Of a stretch of DNA of 35,336 nt, positions 8,398 to 35,336 are shown piece after piece. The number at the start of each line of letters is the position of its first letter. The stretch's first letter is position 1. Position numbers and translations under genes: made by a program. Source of the stretch: a virus; IMG/VR virus record IMGVR_UViG_3300040770_000255, positions 1 through 35,336 of that record. One strand, written 5' to 3'. The notes under the pieces are model-generated. The model did no database searches. It saw only the letters and a list, made by a program, of their open reading frames with translations, and was not told the DNA's origin.

Positions 8398-8551
8398 GTC
8401 TTATTAAAATTTTAAGTCTTTCGATTTCTTTTGATAATTTATAGTAACTTTCGACGCAAGCGACAAAAGGCAAAAGGTCCAAATATAAACGGCGCTGAAT
8501 AATTATTTCTTCAAGCGCCGTTTCTTGTTTTTTAGTCAACACTTTCTTCAA
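8366..8551 (-). CDS. Small basic helical protein of unknown function
   Basis: Up to 61 residues. The longest form starts at TTG (8551), overlapping the end of the ATPase gene by 20 bases; GTG or TTG starts lie three and four codons further in, and there is no ATG nearby. The sequence (ETALEEIIIQRRLYLDLLPF, then KLSKEIERLKILIRHAKYKR) is helical and basic. It sits in the leftward operon between the ATPase and the 44-residue gene, with overlaps on both sides, which supports coupled expression. It may be an accessory subunit of the ATPase; nothing in the sequence proves this. Confidence 0.45.
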   Translation of the reverse strand: MKKVLTKKQETALEEIIIQRRLYLDLLPFVACVESYYKLSKEIERLKILIRHAKYKRSKTS

Positions 8552-9797
8552 TTTCTATTTTTAGGGCGCCAGCTTCGCGGTCCACAAGTTCAACAAATAG
8601 TTCGATTCCTTCAGCGCCGGACCATTTTTGGACTTTTTCGAAATTTTCTTTATCAATCAGTGAAGCGTCTATTTTTAGAATTTTAACTTCGTTAAGCAAA
8701 GAAGCGCCAATTTTTAAACCGGCTATTAATTGCGAAGCCGTATTTATTTGCGTTTTATCAAAAGGCAATCCATTAAAAAGGAAACATTCGTTTTCGACGT
8801 CATAAGATAATCCTTCAATTACGATCTTTTCAGAAATAATAAGCGCTTTTGCGTCCTTTTGCGCCTCAATTCCTTCGCTTGCTTCTTGAATACTGTTTTG
8901 TAGCTTTTCAATCGCTTCGTCGGCCTGTTTGAAAGCCTTAGCTTCATTTATACGCTTGTTAATTGATTCACTATTAACAAAAGCCGTTTCTTTTTCCTGA
9001 AGGCTAACGTTTGGAATTGGCTTGTTTTTTTCGTCGTCAAGCCAAGTATAACCGTCTTTAACTTCGGCTTCAATTGTCGCGACCTGAAGAAGCTTCGCTT
9101 CTATTTCGGATTTTAGCGTTTTAACAGTGATTTCACGCGTAGCGATTCCGTCCGTCACTTGTTGCCAAGAAGCCGACTTAATTCGTTCCGCTTCGGTTAG
9201 AACTGCGATTTCTTTGGCCAGCGCTACAACGTCGACAAGTTCTTTTTCGGCGTCTTCAGAATTAAAAAAACCGGTCAAGGTTTGAAATTCGACAAGCTTT
9301 TTCTTGTCAAATTTTCGGCTGTCAGTAAGTTCTTCAATTTGTTGGTTTTGTTCGCAAACATCGACGCCGGTAATTTTACAAAAATACTCAACTTGCTTCG
9401 CGTCCGACATTTTAAAAAAGTCGTTAACGTCAAAGTCAATAACGCCGATACGTTCGTTTAACCATGTTCTGGGCGCCTTTACAAACTTGTCTTTTTCGTC
9501 GACAGCGTTTAAGTTTTCGATTTCGAATTGTATCGGAGTTTTACCGACAGCCAATTTCGTTCGTACTATATAACCGTCAGAAAGTTCGACTTCAATAAGA
9601 CCTTTTTTGGCGCCTGTTGTCACCGGTTTCGGCGGTACGTTCTTACCGGTCAAAGCAAGCCAAACGGCGTCGATAAAAGACGTTTTTCCGCTAGCGTTTC
9701 GGCCTGTCAAATAGACGTCGTTTCCAAGAACTTCGCCTTCGTAAGATTTTAAACCTTTGAAATTCTGTATTTTAATTCTTTTAATTTGGGTTTCCAT
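8532..9797 (-). CDS. RecF/SMC/Rad50-like AAA ATPase
   Basis: 421 residues. The N-terminus has the SMC-type layout: a strand and glycine turn (IKIQNFKGLKSYEG), then Walker A GRNASGKTS at 32-40 with Lys38. Residues about 170-310 are a charged helical region that can form a short coiled coil. The C-terminal part (FNGLPFDKTQINTASQLIAG, LKILKIDASLIDKENF-like, then GIELFVELVD) matches the ending of phage AAA_23-type ATPases, with the Walker-B region at ILKIDASLID rather than a canonical DE pair. No nuclease gene is beside it. Likely DNA repair or recombination during replication, together with the SSB-like gene upstream. Confidence 0.8.
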   Translation of the reverse strand: METQIKRIKIQNFKGLKSYEGEVLGNDVYLTGRNASGKTSFIDAVWLALTGKNVPPKPVTTGAKKGLIEVELSDGYIVRTKLAVGKTPIQFEIENLNAVDEKDKFVKAPRTWLNERIGVIDFDVNDFFKMSDAKQVEYFCKITGVDVCEQNQQIEELTDSRKFDKKKLVEFQTLTGFFNSEDAEKELVDVVALAKEIAVLTEAERIKSASWQQVTDGIATREITVKTLKSEIEAKLLQVATIEAEVKDGYTWLDDEKNKPIPNVSLQEKETAFVNSESINKRINEAKAFKQADEAIEKLQNSIQEASEGIEAQKDAKALIISEKIVIEGLSYDVENECFLFNGLPFDKTQINTASQLIAGLKIGASLLNEVKILKIDASLIDKENFEKVQKWSGAEGIELFVELVDREAGALKIEIEESVD

Positions 9798-9824
9798 GTT
9801 TTTTTTTTATTATTTACTTTTAAT

Positions 9825-9853
9825 ATAAAAGGCGCGCTTTAAAAACGCGCCTT
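9825..9853 (-). terminator. Hairpin between SSB-like and ATPase genes (attenuator or terminator)
   Basis: An 8-bp perfect stem AAGGCGCG/CGCGCCTT with a 9-base loop. On the minus strand it is followed by TTTTATATTA, a weak U-rich tail. It lies just downstream of the SSB-like stop and upstream of the ATPase. A partial terminator here would give more SSB than ATPase from one leftward promoter. No TAnnTTTG box lies between it and the ATPase start. Confidence 0.6.
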
Positions 9854-9871
9854 GGTTAAAAAATTAACTGA

Positions 9872-10537
9872 CTAAAACGGTAATTGCTTTTTAACGATTC
9901 CAACGCCGTCGATAGGATTGATTATAAAACCGGCCGGAATTGCGTCGCCAGCAACCCAATTTTCAGGCGTTACGATTTTGGCGTTCGTTTGCGCTGGCGC
10001 CGCGTTCGGATTTTCAGGGTTTCCGGCCAAGGCTTTTCCGATAAATGGATTTCCGCCGTTTACGAACAATTGCGTTAAGTCAACAGGATTTTCAGTATAG
10101 GCTTCAACAATTGCGTCAGAAACAGCGCTTGGAGGTTCCGGAGCCGTTATGTATTCCGTTTCCATTCCGGAACCTTTTCTTGTAATTACGACATCGTAGT
10201 TTTTAGGGTGGCCCCATGCTGGTTTTAAGGCTAAAGACATAAGCATAGCAATAACGCCGGCTTTATCTAGTTCGAAAACTTCGATTTTTTCGGTCTTGTA
10301 GTTCCAAACGATAAGGCCCCACGCATGCTTGACGCTGTCTTTTTGGCCTTCGCCTTTTTTCGGCGCTGGTTGGCCTTGGGTGAACGGGTGGCGCGTTGGT
10401 TTTCCGTCTAACCATTCCAGCCACATTAATACAGGCGAAGACAGAATTCTAAGCTTGTTGTCGCCCATCTCTAATTTAGTGAAACCGCCGGCGCTAGTTG
10501 GTTGTGAATAACCTTCAGGAATAAATGAATTTGACAT
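9872..10537 (-). CDS. Single-stranded DNA-binding protein-like (OB-fold)
   Basis: 221 residues. The N-terminal half (GGFTKLEMGDNKLRILSSPV, then WLEWLDGKPTRHPF, then HAWGLIVWNYKTEKIEVFEL) matches the OB-fold core of phage proteins annotated as ssDNA-binding. A proline/alanine/asparagine-rich linker follows, and the last residues are KKQLPF. Bacterial SSBs end in an acidic tip finishing in PF that recruits partner proteins; here the final PF is present but the acidic run is missing. Second main gene of the leftward operon, before the RecF-like ATPase. It probably coats ssDNA at replication forks and recombination intermediates. Confidence 0.7.
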   Translation of the reverse strand: MSNSFIPEGYSQPTSAGGFTKLEMGDNKLRILSSPVLMWLEWLDGKPTRHPFTQGQPAPKKGEGQKDSVKHAWGLIVWNYKTEKIEVFELDKAGVIAMLMSLALKPAWGHPKNYDVVITRKGSGMETEYITAPEPPSAVSDAIVEAYTENPVDLTQLFVNGGNPFIGKALAGNPENPNAAPAQTNAKIVTPENWVAGDAIPAGFIINPIDGVGIVKKQLPF

Positions 10538-10569
10538 AATTTTAATATTTATTGATTAATTGTTAATTT

Positions 10570-10824
10570 TTAATTTGTTTCGTTTAATTGTTTTGCAAGG
10601 TCTTCAAGCTTTTCGGTCAAGTCTTTATCGGTCGATCTTAATTGCAATACATTAGCAATTAAGGACCTTTTTTTAACGGTATCGAGGGCCGGAAAAAGGT
10701 AAACTAAAAGCGAAGTAATTCCGCTTTTAGGAAGTGAAGCCTTGGCGTTAATAACGCGAATTTTAAGGCTGTCGTCGGCTGGAAGTCTTTTTTTTTCACT
10801 AGCCGTTTGTTTTTTTGGTCTCAT
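10570..10824 (-). CDS. Small protein of unknown function in the leftward operon
   Basis: 84 residues. A lysine-rich start (MRPKKQTASEKKRLPADDS) leads into two helical stretches: LPKSGITSLLVYLFPALDT and a C-terminal heptad-like DKDLTEKLEDLAKQLNETN. It could bind nucleic acid through its basic start and dimerise through its end, but I recognise no family. It lies between the first leftward gene and the SSB-like gene with gaps of about 25-30 bases and no promoter box between, so it is probably co-transcribed. Confidence 0.6.
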   Translation of the reverse strand: MRPKKQTASEKKRLPADDSLKIRVINAKASLPKSGITSLLVYLFPALDTVKKRSLIANVLQLRSTDKDLTEKLEDLAKQLNETN

Positions 10825-15484: not shown

Positions 15485-15639
15485 AAAATAATAAAAGAAC
15501 CTACATTTTTAACGGCGTTAATTATCAATTGAAAGCAAAACTTACATTTTACGATAAAATAATGATCTTAACAGGCTTTATTTTTCTTTTTGGCCTGTGG
15601 GTTTCCGGCTTCTTGTTATTGGCTTTTGCGTTATGGTAA
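15481..15639 (+). CDS. Small 52-residue membrane protein, TTG start
   Basis: A frame from TTG at 15481 (TTGA overlap with the previous stop) to TAA at 15639 encodes an N-terminal polar part (KNNKRTYIFNGVNYQLKAKL) and one transmembrane helix (MILTGFIFLFGLWVSGFLLL and onward). Its end overlaps the primase ATG at 15633. A TTGA-coupled start is also used by the MuF gene here, which supports this one. No function recognised. Confidence 0.5.
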   Translation: MKNNKRTYIFNGVNYQLKAKLTFYDKIMILTGFIFLFGLWVSGFLLLAFALW

Positions 15640-16520
15640 AATTTCAATTTTATCCAGCGCGCGTAAATTCTAAAAAACCAATTGGCGAAGTAACTCTTTT
15701 AGAATTCCTTAAAGCAAACCAAGACCCAAACGACGAAATAAAGGCCGTATTCGCACAAATAGCACAAGCTGAAGCCAACGGCGACCAAAAACAAAAAGCC
15801 TTCTTAAAACAGTCTTTTCTTTACTATTTTACGCCGTGCGTATGGACCGACGGCCAAGGGCGTTCGTATGATAACATTTTAAGTTTTACCGGCTTGGCAG
15901 TTCTTGACTTTGATCATATCGAAAACGCGAATGAATTCAAATATTTTATATTTAACTCTTTTCCGTCCGTTGTCGCTGGCTGGCTGTCACCTTCTAAAAA
16001 AGGCTGTAAATTTCTTGTAAAAATTCCGGTCGTTAAAACTGTCGACGAATTCAAGTCTTATTTTTACGGCCTTGGCTTGGAAATGGAAAACTTCAAAGGC
16101 TTCGACGGAACCGGCCAAAACGCAATTTTACCTTTATTCCTGTCGTACGACCCCGATTTATTATATAGGGAAAACGCCGAAACGTGGACCAAGCGCGGAA
16201 AAATGCTAAACGCCTTTGTCGCGTCTTCGGCGCCTTTGGTTCCGGTCCAAGTTGGTGAAGGCGACCAAGCGCGCGTTCAGCGAATTATAATTAAATTATT
16301 TGAAGCTATCGTTTCCGACGGACACCCGCAAGTTAGAAGCGCCGGCGTAACTTTGGGCGGCTATGTCGCCAGCGGTTACATGGACCAAGCCAGCGCCGAA
16401 AATTTTATTAATTCATTAATACAAAATAATTCATACCTTCGAAAAGGAATTTCAGGCTACCAAATCACCGCAAAAACAGCGATTCAAAAAGGAATGTTAT
16501 CGCAATTAACCCTTCAATAA
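15633..16520 (+). CDS. Primase, VirE-N / BT4734-like (AEP superfamily)
   Basis: 295 residues from the ATG at 15633; an in-frame ATG 12 codons upstream lies inside the small membrane gene and gives a hydrophobic lead, so I prefer the shorter form. The mark of the archaeo-eukaryotic primase fold is FTGLAVLDFDHIEN, with Asp92 and Asp94 as the metal-binding pair, then WLSPSKKGCKFLVKIP, matching the SxSGxGxK-like segment of VirE-N proteins. It should lay RNA or DNA primers. The helicase starts on the base after its stop. In many mobile elements the two activities are one polypeptide; here they are separate genes. Confidence 0.8.
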   Translation: MVKFQFYPARVNSKKPIGEVTLLEFLKANQDPNDEIKAVFAQIAQAEANGDQKQKAFLKQSFLYYFTPCVWTDGQGRSYDNILSFTGLAVLDFDHIENANEFKYFIFNSFPSVVAGWLSPSKKGCKFLVKIPVVKTVDEFKSYFYGLGLEMENFKGFDGTGQNAILPLFLSYDPDLLYRENAETWTKRGKMLNAFVASSAPLVPVQVGEGDQARVQRIIIKLFEAIVSDGHPQVRSAGVTLGGYVASGYMDQASAENFINSLIQNNSYLRKGISGYQITAKTAIQKGMLSQLTLQ

Positions 16521-18020
16521 ATGAACAACAACAAAGAAGTAACAGCTGACGACTTTATAAAAGAAAATTTTATACATGACAAAAAATATGTTGAATTCGA
16601 CGAAACGCCTGAAGTACAACAGGCCCGAAATGACCAAGAAAAAGCAAGCTGGCGCGAAGTTTATAGTTTTGCACACGCTATAAATAAAGCCGGCCGTTCG
16701 TTCACCGAAACGGACGTAAAAAACCAATGCGAACGTTTTTATTTGTCATTCGAAAAAGTGCAATTAGTTTTTCAAAAAGTAGCGGAAAACAATCAGGACG
16801 AATTCGGAATTGAAGACAAGCCGGAAATTTTCAAAGTCGAAAATTTTCTTCGAAAAAATTGGGATTTTGTTCGAAACGAAGTAACGCAAAGAAGCGAATA
16901 CAGACTAAAGAATTCGACCAACGAATTCGAAAAATTAAACGTCGATAGCCTATACAGGAAACTGCAACATGTTCGTTTTACTTTTTCAATCGACAAAGTT
17001 AAGTCTTTGCTTCGGTCCGATTTTGTGAAGACTTACAACCCTTTTTTCGAGTATTTCGAAGCCTTGGAGCCGTGGAACCGCGAAGTTGATCATATAGGTA
17101 ATTTGGCCAATTATGTGACAACAACCGACCAAAATTTTCACGTTACGCAATTTCGGAAAATGCTCGTTCGTTGTATAGGGTGCGCGCTTTACGGCGTAGA
17201 AAATCGTTTCGTCTATGTTTTTGTAGGCGAAAAGCAAGAAAAAGGAAAAAGTACTTTTATTCGTTTTTTAAACCCGTTCGGCCGTAACTATTACACCGAA
17301 GCACCAATTAGAGACAATAAAGACACTTATTTTTCTTTTTCTGAAAACTTCATCTACAACCTTGAAGAACTTGCTTCGCTGTCTAATTTAGAGGTTAATC
17401 AATTGAAGTCTATTATTTCTATGACTACGATCAAAGAACGTAAGGCTTACGCCGTGGACGCCGAGGAACAACCAAGACGGACGAATTTTTTCGGTTCCAC
17501 TAATAAGAACGAATTTTTGACCGATACGGAAAACACGCGCTGGCTATGCGTTAACGTTGAAGACATAAATTGGAACTATAAAAAAGACGTTGACATTCAC
17601 GCCGTTTGGTCGCAAGCCTTCGCTTTATACCATGACGAGGAATATAACCAATTTTTAACCGCTGGCGAAATGAGCGTTCGCGACTTGCTGAATAAAAACT
17701 TCGAAGTTTCCGACCTTGAAAAAGATTTAATTAAGCAATGCTTTGAAATTGGCGACGAAAAAGGTTCTTTTTACTCTTTGCCTGACATTATTTCGACGCT
17801 AAGCGATAAATTTAACGGTAAGCCGCTTAATTCGCGCTTTATTGGCAAATCTATGGCCCAGCTTGGTTTTTTGGCTGGAATCCAGCGCGTAAATGGACAC
17901 AAGACGCGCGGCTATTGGGTGAACCTAAGAACGACGGCTTTATACGAAAACGGCGACGAAAAGACGCCTTTCGTCAAACCTGAAGTAAAAGAGGCGGAAC
18001 AAAAAGAATTTAAGTTTTAA
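16521..18020 (+). CDS. Replicative helicase, VirE family P-loop ATPase
   Basis: 499 residues. The C-terminal two-thirds carry the virulence-associated-E domain: Walker A GEKQEKGKST at 236-245 (Lys243), Walker B-like FIYNLEEL around 277-284, a sensor segment STNKNEFLTDTENTRW and an arginine-containing VNVEDINW. This family is found in phage and plasmid replication proteins as the helicase partner of AEP primases. The N-terminal 200 residues are helical and may contact primase or DNA. It directly precedes the repeat array proposed as origin, as expected for an initiator-helicase acting on its own gene's flank. Confidence 0.88.
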   Translation: MNNNKEVTADDFIKENFIHDKKYVEFDETPEVQQARNDQEKASWREVYSFAHAINKAGRSFTETDVKNQCERFYLSFEKVQLVFQKVAENNQDEFGIEDKPEIFKVENFLRKNWDFVRNEVTQRSEYRLKNSTNEFEKLNVDSLYRKLQHVRFTFSIDKVKSLLRSDFVKTYNPFFEYFEALEPWNREVDHIGNLANYVTTTDQNFHVTQFRKMLVRCIGCALYGVENRFVYVFVGEKQEKGKSTFIRFLNPFGRNYYTEAPIRDNKDTYFSFSENFIYNLEELASLSNLEVNQLKSIISMTTIKERKAYAVDAEEQPRRTNFFGSTNKNEFLTDTENTRWLCVNVEDINWNYKKDVDIHAVWSQAFALYHDEEYNQFLTAGEMSVRDLLNKNFEVSDLEKDLIKQCFEIGDEKGSFYSLPDIISTLSDKFNGKPLNSRFIGKSMAQLGFLAGIQRVNGHKTRGYWVNLRTTALYENGDEKTPFVKPEVKEAEQKEFKF

Positions 18021-18026
18021 CCATGC

Positions 18027-18296
18027 GGAACAACAGAAACGCGTTTTGGAACATCACAAAAAAAGCTATTGTTCCAGCTGAAGCCAACGCTGGCGCTGGC
18101 TGGAACATGTGGAACATTAGGAACATCACTTTTCAAACATTTTCCAAGGACATGAAAACAACCATATTTAAATATACAAAAGTTTTAAGGAATTTGATGT
18201 TCCTATTGTTCCACCGGTCCGCAAGCCTTACCATTAAAGGGCTAAGGGTGGAACATCAAAAAAAATCCTGTTGTTCCATGATGTTCCACATGTTCC
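18027..18296. other. Candidate replication origin: inverted arrays of GGAACA iterons
   Basis: Twelve copies of GGAACA or its complement TGTTCC in 270 bases. Plus-oriented copies begin at 18027, 18048, 18102, 18111, 18120 and 18250; inverse copies begin near 18070, 18198, 18207, 18272, 18282 and 18291. Three plus copies have a strict 9-base period with consensus TGGAACATN, and pairs of inverse copies also stand 9 apart. The left cluster is mostly direct, the right mostly inverted, and between them lies an AT-rich core (ATATTTAAATATAC around 18165-18178). Iterons beside a primase-helicase gene recall the phage P4 system. An open frame of 93 codons crosses the array but looks forced by the repeats. 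This region also accounts for the gap 18021-18342. Confidence 0.7.
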
Positions 18297-18342
18297 ACTT
18301 TTGAAATGCCAAATTAAATAATAAAAAAAAAATAAAAACAAG

Positions 18343-19038
18343 ATGACAAATCCATTTATTGACAGTTCGGCCGTGGCCGGTGAATGCGAAAAAATAATTG
18401 AAAACCAAAAACAAACCGAAGGCCGTATTCAGTCCGAATGCTTCATTTGGTTTAATAATGAATTTCCAGCTTTGCGCGGTTTAATGTATCATGTACCAAA
18501 CGGCGGCTTAATGACAGGAGCAAAAGGAAACCAATTAAAAGCAATGGGCGTCGTTGCTGGCGTTCCTGATCTTGAATTTCATTTTTGGAAAAGAACCTTC
18601 TTTTTGGAATGTAAGACCCCGACAGGAACCGTTTCAAAAGACCAAATAAAAATTCATAATATTTTAGACGAACACGGTTTTAGGGTTTTTGTATTCAGGT
18701 CAAAAAAAGAGTTTCAAGACATTATTTATGCGATTATTGAAGACAAGTCGCCAATGTTTAAAAGAGGCTTAAAACGGGCCGAATTCGAATACAGAAACGG
18801 CGTTTTTAATTATCTTTACAACTTAGAAGAAGGAAACGTTCAAATGCTAGATGATTTAGTTACGCCGGAAAATTACGAACGTTTCAAAGGCTTGGTTATT
18901 GAATTTATAAACGAAGGTTTTGACAGTCTCGAAGGCTTCGAAATACTTTTTACGCCGGACTATTTAGGTTTCTATAAAAAAAGCCTTGAAAAAGAAACTG
19001 AAGTATTTTACAAAGGTTCAACAACAACAGAAATATAA
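18343..19038 (+). CDS. VRR-NUC domain nuclease with extra C-terminal region
   Basis: 231 residues. Residues about 25-125 contain the VRR-NUC PD-(D/E)xK core: YHVPNGG, then GVPDLEF with the metal-binding Asp, then FFLECKT with Glu and Lys, and TVSKDQIKIHNIL with the conserved Gln. Phage VRR-NUC proteins usually stop soon after; this one continues for about 100 acidic, helical residues (YLYNLEEGNVQMLDDLVTPE and onward) of unknown role. Members act as Holliday-junction or structure-specific nucleases. Located between the origin candidate and terminase, it may resolve branched DNA before packaging. Confidence 0.8.
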   Translation: MTNPFIDSSAVAGECEKIIENQKQTEGRIQSECFIWFNNEFPALRGLMYHVPNGGLMTGAKGNQLKAMGVVAGVPDLEFHFWKRTFFLECKTPTGTVSKDQIKIHNILDEHGFRVFVFRSKKEFQDIIYAIIEDKSPMFKRGLKRAEFEYRNGVFNYLYNLEEGNVQMLDDLVTPENYERFKGLVIEFINEGFDSLEGFEILFTPDYLGFYKKSLEKETEVFYKGSTTTEI

Positions 19039-19044
19039 ATAAAA

Positions 19045-19608
19045 ATGAAACAACCGAAACCCCGAAAAACAGACGAAAAGAAGGCCGAACGCTTGGCAGT
19101 TCGTGACGCTTCTTTGATTCCTTTTTCGATAATTGTTGAAGACAAAAAAGAAAACAAACCGACTGTTAAAAAGTCGGCTATTGAAAAGCAAAAAGATTTT
19201 ATTGAATTAATATTTTCAAAGAACCCCGTCGGCCGTCCAAGGCTTTATTCAACAGCCGAAGAACTTGAAGCCGAAATAACGAATTATTTTATTTATTGTT
19301 ATAGCAATTCTATAAAGCTGACTATTAGCGGTTTAGTTTTGTACTGCGGCTTTTCAGATAGAAAAAGTTTTTACGCTTATGAAGAAAACCGCGAATTTAG
19401 TCACATTATCAAGAAGGCGCGCGGGATAATAACGCTACATTACGAAAACCTTTTGACTGAAGCGTTCCCGCAAGGGGCGGTTTTTGCGCTCAAAAATTTA
19501 GGCTGGAACGCTGAAGAAAAAATTGAAAACACCGTAAAAACCAAAACGTCGTTTTATATTGGCGGCGACGAAATTGAAGACATAGATTATTATGGCGAAA
19601 ACGAATAA
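19045..19608 (+). CDS. terS: Terminase small subunit
   Basis: 187 residues. It has a basic N-terminus (KQPKPRKTDEKKAERLAVRD) and a GRPRLYSTAEELEAEI segment, typical of DNA-packaging gp3-like small terminases, then a helix-turn-helix-like region (LTISGLVLYCGFSDRKSFYA) and KKARGIITLHYENLLTEAFP. Its acidic C-terminus (GGDEIEDIDYYGENE) may contact the large subunit. It overlaps the large subunit by 17 bases. It should recognise the packaging site and load the motor; no pac or cos site could be located from the sequence. Confidence 0.85.
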   Translation: MKQPKPRKTDEKKAERLAVRDASLIPFSIIVEDKKENKPTVKKSAIEKQKDFIELIFSKNPVGRPRLYSTAEELEAEITNYFIYCYSNSIKLTISGLVLYCGFSDRKSFYAYEENREFSHIIKKARGIITLHYENLLTEAFPQGAVFALKNLGWNAEEKIENTVKTKTSFYIGGDEIEDIDYYGENE

Positions 19609-21148
19609 CGACGTTAACCGCGTCGCACTTAAATTTAATTGGAAACTTTTCAATCCAAACTTTCACCATATAGAACGCGAATTTAGAGACACGACGCGCC
19701 GTTTTATATGGTGCTACGGCGGCTCGTCTTCAGCAAAAACATATTCAGTCAGTCAGGCGGTTTTGATTATTGGCGCGCTCGTCGAAGGTAGTGACACGCT
19801 TGTTTTTCGTAAAGTTTCGGCGACCCTTGAAAGCACCATTTTCAAAGATTTCGTCGGAATTATTGCGAAGCTGAAGCTGGACGCCTTTTTTAAAATTAAT
19901 TACAGAAAAATAACTTGTATTAACGGCGCCGTTATTGACTTTAAAGGTCTTGACGACAATCAAAAAATAAAAGGAATTTCCGGATATAAGCGCGTAGTCA
20001 TGGACGAAATAAGCGAAATGGAATTTGGCGATTTCAAGCAAATTCGTAAACGTTTAAGGGGCCAAATTGGTCAGCAAATTATTTGCATGTTCAATCCAAT
20101 TGACGAAGAACATTGGATAAAAAAAGAAGTTTTTGACAAGCAAGACAAGCGCGTTTTGTCGAATTCATTAATCGACAGGAACGGCGTCTTGAAATTGGAC
20201 GTTAATCCGGTTTATACTGAAGTCACCGAAAAATGGGAAGGCGGCCCGTTATTCATTAAAGGAGTGCAAAGGCCGTCGAATATCGTTGTAATGAAGTCGA
20301 CTTATTTGAATAACTTTTGGGTCGTTGGTTCGCCGTGCGAAACGTTCGGCTTTACCGATGAGCAAACTATAATGGACTTTGATCAGGATAAAGCAAACGA
20401 TTGGGATTTTTACGCGGTTTACGGCCTTGGAAATTGGGGTAAATTGAATAAAGGCGGCGAAATGTATAAAAACTTTGACGTTAAAAGGCACGTTAAACCG
20501 TGGCTTTATGACCCTGAACGCTCGCTTCACCTGACTTTTGACGAAAACGTAAATCCTTTTATGACGCTGGACATTTTTCAAGCTGAAGGAATGAAGGCTT
20601 GGCAAATTGACGAAATTTGTCTTGAAGACCCAAGGAACACTTTAACGCATACGATCAAAGAATTTGCGGACCGGTACGCGCCGAACGGGATGACCATTTT
20701 TATTTACGGCGACGCGACAAGTAAAAAGCAAGACGTCAAGCTAGAAAAGGGCGTTAATTTTTTTGTACTTATTGAAAACCAATTAATTGCTAAGGGTTTT
20801 AACGTGGTTCGTCGAGTTCCGTCCAAAAACCCAAACGTCGAACTTCGCTGCAATTGGTTTAACGCGGTTCTGAACGGTCTCGACGGAATTGAAGTAAGTT
20901 TTGGCGACAATTGCGCGAAAACCATTGGCGACTACAAATATTTAAAACAAGCTTCGGACGGCGGAAAACATAAGGAAAAAGTTAAGAATTCAACAACAGG
21001 CGTTGTTTTCGAAAAATACGGCCACAACACCGACGCGAATGACTACTTTTTTACTTATTTCTTTTCGTCTAGCTTCGATAATTTCGGTTCGTCAAAGGCG
21101 GTTCAAAAAACGATAATTAGAAACCGTTCATTAAAAGGCGCTTATTGA
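19592..21148 (+). CDS. terL: Terminase large subunit
   Basis: 518 residues. ATPase part: Walker A variant GGSSSAKT at 43-50 (Lys49), Walker B VVMDE with Asp138/Glu139, and a coupling-motif region around IICMFNPIDEEHWIK. C-terminal RNase H-like nuclease: FIYGDATSKKQD near residue 375, then a middle acidic site around EVSFGDNC, and GHNTDANDYFFTYFF near the end. The type is like PBSX-family Terminase_3. It cleaves concatemers and drives DNA into the prohead. The Walker A contains serines where many have G/K, as is common in this family. A TAnnTTTG box follows after the stop. Confidence 0.95.
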   Translation: MAKTNNDVNRVALKFNWKLFNPNFHHIEREFRDTTRRFIWCYGGSSSAKTYSVSQAVLIIGALVEGSDTLVFRKVSATLESTIFKDFVGIIAKLKLDAFFKINYRKITCINGAVIDFKGLDDNQKIKGISGYKRVVMDEISEMEFGDFKQIRKRLRGQIGQQIICMFNPIDEEHWIKKEVFDKQDKRVLSNSLIDRNGVLKLDVNPVYTEVTEKWEGGPLFIKGVQRPSNIVVMKSTYLNNFWVVGSPCETFGFTDEQTIMDFDQDKANDWDFYAVYGLGNWGKLNKGGEMYKNFDVKRHVKPWLYDPERSLHLTFDENVNPFMTLDIFQAEGMKAWQIDEICLEDPRNTLTHTIKEFADRYAPNGMTIFIYGDATSKKQDVKLEKGVNFFVLIENQLIAKGFNVVRRVPSKNPNVELRCNWFNAVLNGLDGIEVSFGDNCAKTIGDYKYLKQASDGGKHKEKVKNSTTGVVFEKYGHNTDANDYFFTYFFSSSFDNFGSSKAVQKTIIRNRSLKGAY

Positions 21149-34325: not shown

Positions 34326-35324
34326 ATGTTAAGACCTTGGATAAAAATTAAAATAGGAAACGAAGCGCTATCTTATGTGACGACCGGCGAAGTTTCTTCA
34401 ACTTGGAAAAAGTTCACCGATACGGCCGTTTTAACGATTCCTAAAAAAGTCGTTAAAGACGGTAAAACTATTTATATAGGAAACGAAAACGTATTTAAAA
34501 AAGGCGACTTTGTGACTATTTCAGTCGGTTATTTTCCAAAAATTGAACAAATTTTTGAGGGGTATTTAACTAAAATAACGCCAGCCGAAAACGTGACGCT
34601 TGAATTCGAAGACCCTTCTTGGATTTTAAAACAAACTAATTTAACAGTATCTTTTAAAAAAATAACACTCGAGGAACTGTTAGTAAAATGCATTGAAGAA
34701 GCGATTTCGAAGGCTTCGCCAGATATAAAAAAAGCGCTAAAATTAATCAAAATAGAAGCAATTAAAGCCGAATTTTTCGCCTTCAGGTTAACAAATGTTA
34801 ATATAGTTCAAGTCCTTGACGAACTAAAAAAGACCTATTCGCTGACCTCTTTTTTTAGGAATCAAACGCTTTTTGTTGGACTTGCTTATAATACAGGCGG
34901 AAAAAAGCACAAGTTCGAATTCGAAGAAAATATTATTTCGAACGACTTGGAATATAAAAAAGAAACTGACGTTCGAATGAAAGTTAAAGTTATTTCAATG
35001 CTGGAAAATAACAAAAAAATAGAAATTGAAGTAGGCGACAGCGACGGCGAACAAAGGACTATATTTGCTTATAACGTGACAGACTTAAAAGAGTTAAAAA
35101 GAATAGGCGAACGCGAAAAAGAGCGTCTAAAATACGAAGGTTATTTTGGAAGCTTTGACACGTTTATTCATTCGCTCGTTTCACACGGCGACGAAATCGA
35201 AATTGTAAATAAAAGACAGCCGGAACAAAACGGCCTTTATTACGCTGAAGAAGTGAAACCAAGGTTCGGAATTGACGGATTTTTTCAAACGATAACGCTT
35301 GGCGTAAAAATAAGCGCGAAATAA
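34326..35324 (+). CDS. Baseplate hub protein, gpD-like late control protein
   Basis: 332 residues. It begins RPWIKIKIGNEALSYVTTGE and continues with FKKGDFVTISVGYFPKIEQI, FEGYLTKITPAENVTLEFED, then a phage late-control-like body and a C-terminal GDEIEIVNKRQPEQNGLYYA, as in gpD/gp27-type hubs. It forms the trimeric ring that mounts the spike. Its final bases lie in the terminal repeat, and on the closed circle the next gene (spike) starts at the TAATG overlap. It ends the operon begun at 29694. Confidence 0.85.
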   Translation: MLRPWIKIKIGNEALSYVTTGEVSSTWKKFTDTAVLTIPKKVVKDGKTIYIGNENVFKKGDFVTISVGYFPKIEQIFEGYLTKITPAENVTLEFEDPSWILKQTNLTVSFKKITLEELLVKCIEEAISKASPDIKKALKLIKIEAIKAEFFAFRLTNVNIVQVLDELKKTYSLTSFFRNQTLFVGLAYNTGGKKHKFEFEENIISNDLEYKKETDVRMKVKVISMLENNKKIEIEVGDSDGEQRTIFAYNVTDLKELKRIGEREKERLKYEGYFGSFDTFIHSLVSHGDEIEIVNKRQPEQNGLYYAEEVKPRFGIDGFFQTITLGVKISAK

Positions 35325-35336
35325 TGGAACTAAAAG
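35283..35336. repeat. Terminal direct repeat, right copy (circular junction)
   Basis: An exact copy of bases 1-54. It contains the last 14 codons of the hub gene and the start of the spike gene. See the left copy for the interpretation as a closed or circularly permuted genome. Confidence 0.95.

Follow-up and report, generated by a model that had tools for sequence, protein, structure and literature searches.

A two-sided iteron array downstream of vapE as a putative SaPI-like replication origin in a phage grouped with Flavobacterium phages

We will start with the alpha protein of phage P4, an initiator helicase whose winged helix binds repeated short motifs near its own gene. In SaPI the initiator is Rep. 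According to the passages of PMC7581432 on this protein, its C-terminal domain recognises an iteron origin located directly downstream of its own gene. The passages of PMC9894130 on SaPI origins describe repeats in opposite orientations which load two head-to-head hexamers; those on SV40 describe an origin where opposed repeats load two head-to-head hexamers of T-antigen. Cch2 of SCCmec is a helicase of the self-loading type, whose C-terminal domain binds short iterons downstream of the gene, as described in the part of PMC7581432 devoted to it. The Cch2 site is considered a putative origin, and that part of the article presents no replication in vivo.

The window, as we will call the whole stretch of DNA analysed here, is the entire virus record IMGVR_UViG_3300040770_000255, with 35,336 bases. 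An exact direct repeat of 54 bp is found at its two ends (1–54 and 35283–35336), so that we are probably dealing with a circularly closed assembly of 35,282 bp, and with a complete genome. By its gene order and VapE identity this phage falls among Flavobacterium phages like lotta8-1 (Winoviridae). Its portal and head genes are Mu-like, and there are no tRNA genes in the window. A divergent block on the − strand, in positions 8532–10824, contains a RecF/SMC-like ATPase (phrog_1499, with weak matches of the GajA/LmuB defence type) and also a gene with an SSB-like match. The region of the array has the following features, starting with a primase related to BT4734, a family included among the AEP primases (PMC5862659):

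15597–16520, + strand: BT4734-like (VirE_N) primase of archaeo-eukaryotic type, a separate gene (PF08800, E 3e-9)
16521–18020, + strand: VapE-type AAA+ helicase, the proposed self-loading initiator (PF05272, E 1e-30)
17715–17930, + strand: VapE residues 399–470, predicted C-terminal winged helix and proposed reader of the iterons (AlphaFold2, fold matches and covariation)
17850–17852, + strand: serine 444 of the window VapE, candidate specificity residue
18021–18342: non-coding gap with the proposed origin, between the VapE and VRR-NUC-type genes
18027–18075: left outer module (> > <), with an A7 tract ahead of its last unit
18102–18125, + strand: left core set, three direct GGAACA units with a 9-bp period
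18126–18197: AT-rich core, the proposed melting site (72 bp, 75% AT as compared with 61% in the genome)
18198–18212, − strand: right core set, two inverted units with a 9-bp period
18250–18296: right outer module (> < < <), with an A8 tract behind its first unit
18343–19038: VRR-NUC-type gene, 3' of the gap
19045–21148: terS/terL, 3' of the VRR-NUC-type gene

The array extends over 18027–18296 and contains exactly twelve exact units, either GGAACA or its complement TGTTCC, the first of them 7 bp past the stop codon of vapE. The left units start at 18027 (+), 18048 (+), 18070 (−), 18102 (+), 18111 (+) and 18120 (+); the right units at 18198 (−), 18207 (−), 18250 (+), 18272 (−), 18282 (−) and 18291 (−). 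Their order is > > < > > > (72 bp, 75% AT) < < > < < <: the + orientation is found in five of the six left units and the − orientation in five of the six right ones. A period of 9 bases appears in three sets, 18102/18111/18120, 18198/18207 and 18282/18291; the step from 18272 to 18282 is 10. An earlier sequence-only reading of this DNA had described twelve such units in 270 bases, several of them with a strict 9-base period, mostly direct to the left and inverted to the right of an AT-rich core, in the gap which follows a VirE-type helicase gene. All of this agrees with what we have found.

No other 6-mer forms a larger cluster in any 270-base stretch of the window. Altogether 39 units are present, whereas dinucleotide shuffles give 13.2 ± 3.7 (maximum 23). 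The 27 units beyond the array are scattered, 23 of them on the + strand, which is mostly coding, and a second GGAACA cluster was not found in the 35-kb record. The array is the densest place, a check which the sequence-only reading had suggested. Six of the eight copies of the longer word TGGAACAT in the window also lie inside it. The cumulative GC skew, suggested as a further check, does not change course at the array and is uninformative. The DnaA-box consensus was not found in the gap, which is neutral for an origin, and no Rfam family is present there. The gap does contain an open frame (18023–18304), which we have discarded as a gene. It matches no family and is missing from the closest relatives; it thus seems to be a side effect of the 9-base period.

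The same array is found in the same gap of six relatives, L121, L122, L123, L124, L125 and Flavobacterium phage lotta8-1, as expected from the proposal that related phages would carry it beside vapE. Among the relatives with the array, lotta8-1 is the closest one in culture. Their VapE is 66–84% identical to that of the window, but the gap is only 47–61% identical. When the window and these six relatives are compared, 35 of the 72 iteron columns are invariant, against 20 of 208 in the rest of the gap (Fisher p 1.7e-11). In the four core units, 22 of the 24 bases are invariant across the relatives, and the stretch 18111–18125 is nearly so. Other phages (FPSV-S1, phi18:1, mumin6-4 and a Pasteurella phage) have repeats of another word near vapE. 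In L126, with a VapE 58% identical to that of the window, the array was not found in 12 kb. This locus has a second, short VapE-like frame directly 3' of the first one.

The only PDB sequence match to the window VapE is PriRep1 (7pds), with a profile E of 8e-19 and a single-sequence E of 1e-7; it is also the best fold match (fold E 2e-13). AlphaFold2 models have a winged helix at the C-terminal residues 399–470. Taken alone, this domain gives modest matches to RFX DNA-binding domains, at the fold level only (E about 0.01), and a weak fold match to the origin-binding domain of P4 (1ka8, E 0.57, TM 0.49). The end of VapE (17931–18020) and of its relatives is a tail which finishes in phenylalanine: EQKEFKF in the window, DEDDVPF in L137, DQDPF in L132 and ENPF in L129. 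It is reminiscent of the C-terminal tips of SSB and might recruit host replication proteins.

The locus resembles SaPI Rep/ori, as far as the latter is described in the published passages mentioned above, in several features. The helicase is homologous (PriRep1, PDB 7pds), many short iterons in opposite orientations lie directly 3' of its gene, opposed sets surround an AT-rich region, and the putative DNA-binding domain of the window VapE is C-terminal as well: it is a predicted winged helix, whose sequence covaries with the repeated word. On the other hand the host group and the word are different, we are dealing with a tailed phage and not with a satellite, and the BT4734-like primase and the additional facing outer units are particular to this locus. 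The best reading of these sequence comparisons is that the array would work like a SaPI origin, by analogy. We consider SaPI nearer than P4 because primase and helicase are encoded separately, a single array has been found and PriRep1 is the sole PDB sequence match. P4 also has an initiator helicase of phage type with repeated short motifs near its gene, and the sequence-only reading had proposed a P4-like logic. However, P4 alpha is a primase-helicase fusion, whereas the two functions are found here in separate genes (15597–16520 and 16521–18020), and P4 needs a second element in cis (crr), whereas the 35-kb record has a single array. A strict P4-type system is ruled out by the unfused primase and the lack of a second array in the record. 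Cch2 is similar in having a putative origin with short iterons 3' of a self-loading-type helicase gene, but it is of the D5/Primase_Cterm type and the published passages show three direct AAGTG-type repeats only. SV40 is a eukaryotic virus whose T-antigen reads DNA with its N-terminal domain, so that it provides an analogy of mechanism only.

The array is very probably the replication origin of the phage, with units that VapE would read through its winged helix in order to load two opposed hexamers. Position, architecture, conservation and the homology of the neighbouring helicase give strong support to a putative origin here, as the sequence-only reading had suggested; from them we infer that there is binding, that hexamers are loaded and melt the DNA, and that the array functions as an origin. 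VapE, the product of the gene just upstream, would bind the GGAACA units with its C-terminal winged helix. The core sets at 18102–18125 and 18198–18212 would place two hexamers in opposite directions on both sides of the AT-rich core, which they would melt before serving as the helicases of the two forks. Primers would come from the neighbouring BT4734-like primase. The outer facing units may be extra binding sites, which would raise occupancy or bend the DNA. The primase, the helicase or a small early protein had been considered as the binder; the helicase VapE now appears as the likely one, and the other two are not favoured.

In order to see how general this organization is, we have gathered a non-redundant set of 108 VapE loci, drawn from viral contigs, bacterial genomes and phage records. 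Arrays were called with a 6-mer test in two orientations, with significance determined against first-order Markov resampling. In this set of mutually related and unweighted loci, a significant two-orientation array is found downstream of vapE in 49 out of 107. The same test gives 1/97 upstream, 4/108 inside vapE and 13/318 elsewhere. In the other 58 loci the 6-mer test detects no array; some of them are misses, with displaced or degenerate arrays (L140, L164). In L224, L225 and L227 both orientations of ATAGGA/TAAGGA-type repeats occur densely about 500–900 bp past vapE, and these may be displaced arrays as well. The word of the array varies by clade (GGAACA, GTTACA, GTAACA, TGACCA, GTGACA and others), and the layout >> AT-rich << returns with different words across clades. 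A strict core, with two units in the same direction 7–11 bp apart which face two opposite ones across 40–125 bp, is found in 19 of 47 arrays, when 3.4 are expected with shuffled orientations. The spacing of neighbours in the same direction has a peak at 8–9 bp. The TGACCA array of Cellulophaga phi12:1 is intact, although its start is about 700 bp more distant from vapE than that of phi18:1, so that it acts like an independent DNA element.

The similarity of words follows the C-terminal winged helix of VapE and not its helicase domain. After correction for the helicase, word similarity and winged-helix identity have a partial r of 0.36, a value reached in none of 2000 permutations, a test which removes phylogeny only in part. 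In the reverse comparison helicase-domain identity adds nothing (r −0.03). A sliding scan places the highest partial correlations in the C-terminal stretch 385–490. The seven GGAACA phages of the window clade all have serine at residue 444, and the six of the GTTACA clade have asparagine. Since this covariation is correlative and the sequences are related to each other, it supports recognition without proving it. A tentative proposal, to which we give somewhat less than even chances, is that VapE replicons keep a fixed scaffold (>> AT-rich core <<) while the word has been repeatedly rewritten, each rewriting being tied to a few residues of the winged helix; origin specificity could then be read from the protein sequence.

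Repeats in this position might instead be a packaging site of pac type, read by the small terminase subunit. The terS gene starts about 750 bp downstream of the array in the window and lies directly 3' of it in L129, L131 and L132. Yet the array is linked more closely to vapE than to terminase, with the caution that homologues may escape a single-sequence terminase search. The 4.5 kb shown 3' of the array in Pasteurella phage KY203335 (L141) include no annotated terminase, and the terS gene of phi18:1 begins about 2.7 kb past vapE. The word also covaries with the winged helix of VapE, and we consider a packaging role very improbable. Some origins double as operators, and the array sits between early replication genes and late genes on the same strand. 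It could be a regulatory hub where a repressor, or VapE regulating itself, controls the nuclease, terminase and structural genes which follow. No promoter-like sites above chance were found in the region, as judged with a consensus which fits Bacteroidota promoters poorly. A two-sided layout around an AT-rich core with a link to the VapE winged helix is unexpected for a plain operator, and the phi12:1 array has remained the same in content although it no longer adjoins its former neighbour. A regulatory hub is very improbable; the sequence-only reading had mentioned both packaging and regulation, and both have lost ground. A functionless array, produced by tandem-repeat expansion or by a repetitive coding frame, would agree with the 93-codon open frame which the 9-bp period maintains through the gap, but the iterons have stayed conserved in a gap which otherwise diverges, relatives lack the frame and unrelated words build the same layout, so that this is almost certainly not the case.

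What is new here is the spread of such putative origins through Bacteroidota phages and the covariation of protein and iterons. The phage studied, taken as having its origin in the array, offers a concrete candidate for a group for which the papers we found give no replication start. Our results support a replication role for genes to which annotations still assign an association with virulence; the virE genes of phi18:1 appear as virulence-related in a 2025 paper (PMC11946311). The covariation makes origin specificity testable with natural protein pairs, and it is a simple route to finding the origins of VapE phages and islands.

A first scan of genome contigs found no relative. A scan of viral contigs with TGGAACATNTGGAACAT left 21 loci which pass a two-orientation filter; several of the densest matches were rejected as origins, since they are GGAACATCA-type repeats in one orientation inside long open frames. 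Two GC-rich phages have GGAACA arrays in both orientations (L004:634–948 and L078:3567–3881), directly 3' of Toprim-type DNA primases (phrog_1139). There the GGAACA word stands beside an initiator which is apparently unrelated. Two-orientation GGAACA arrays with no recognised initiator nearby are found in L007, L011, L016, L022, L033, L052, L084, L085, L089 and L114. Large terminase genes are present within a few kb of the array in those tested (L033, L085 and L089).
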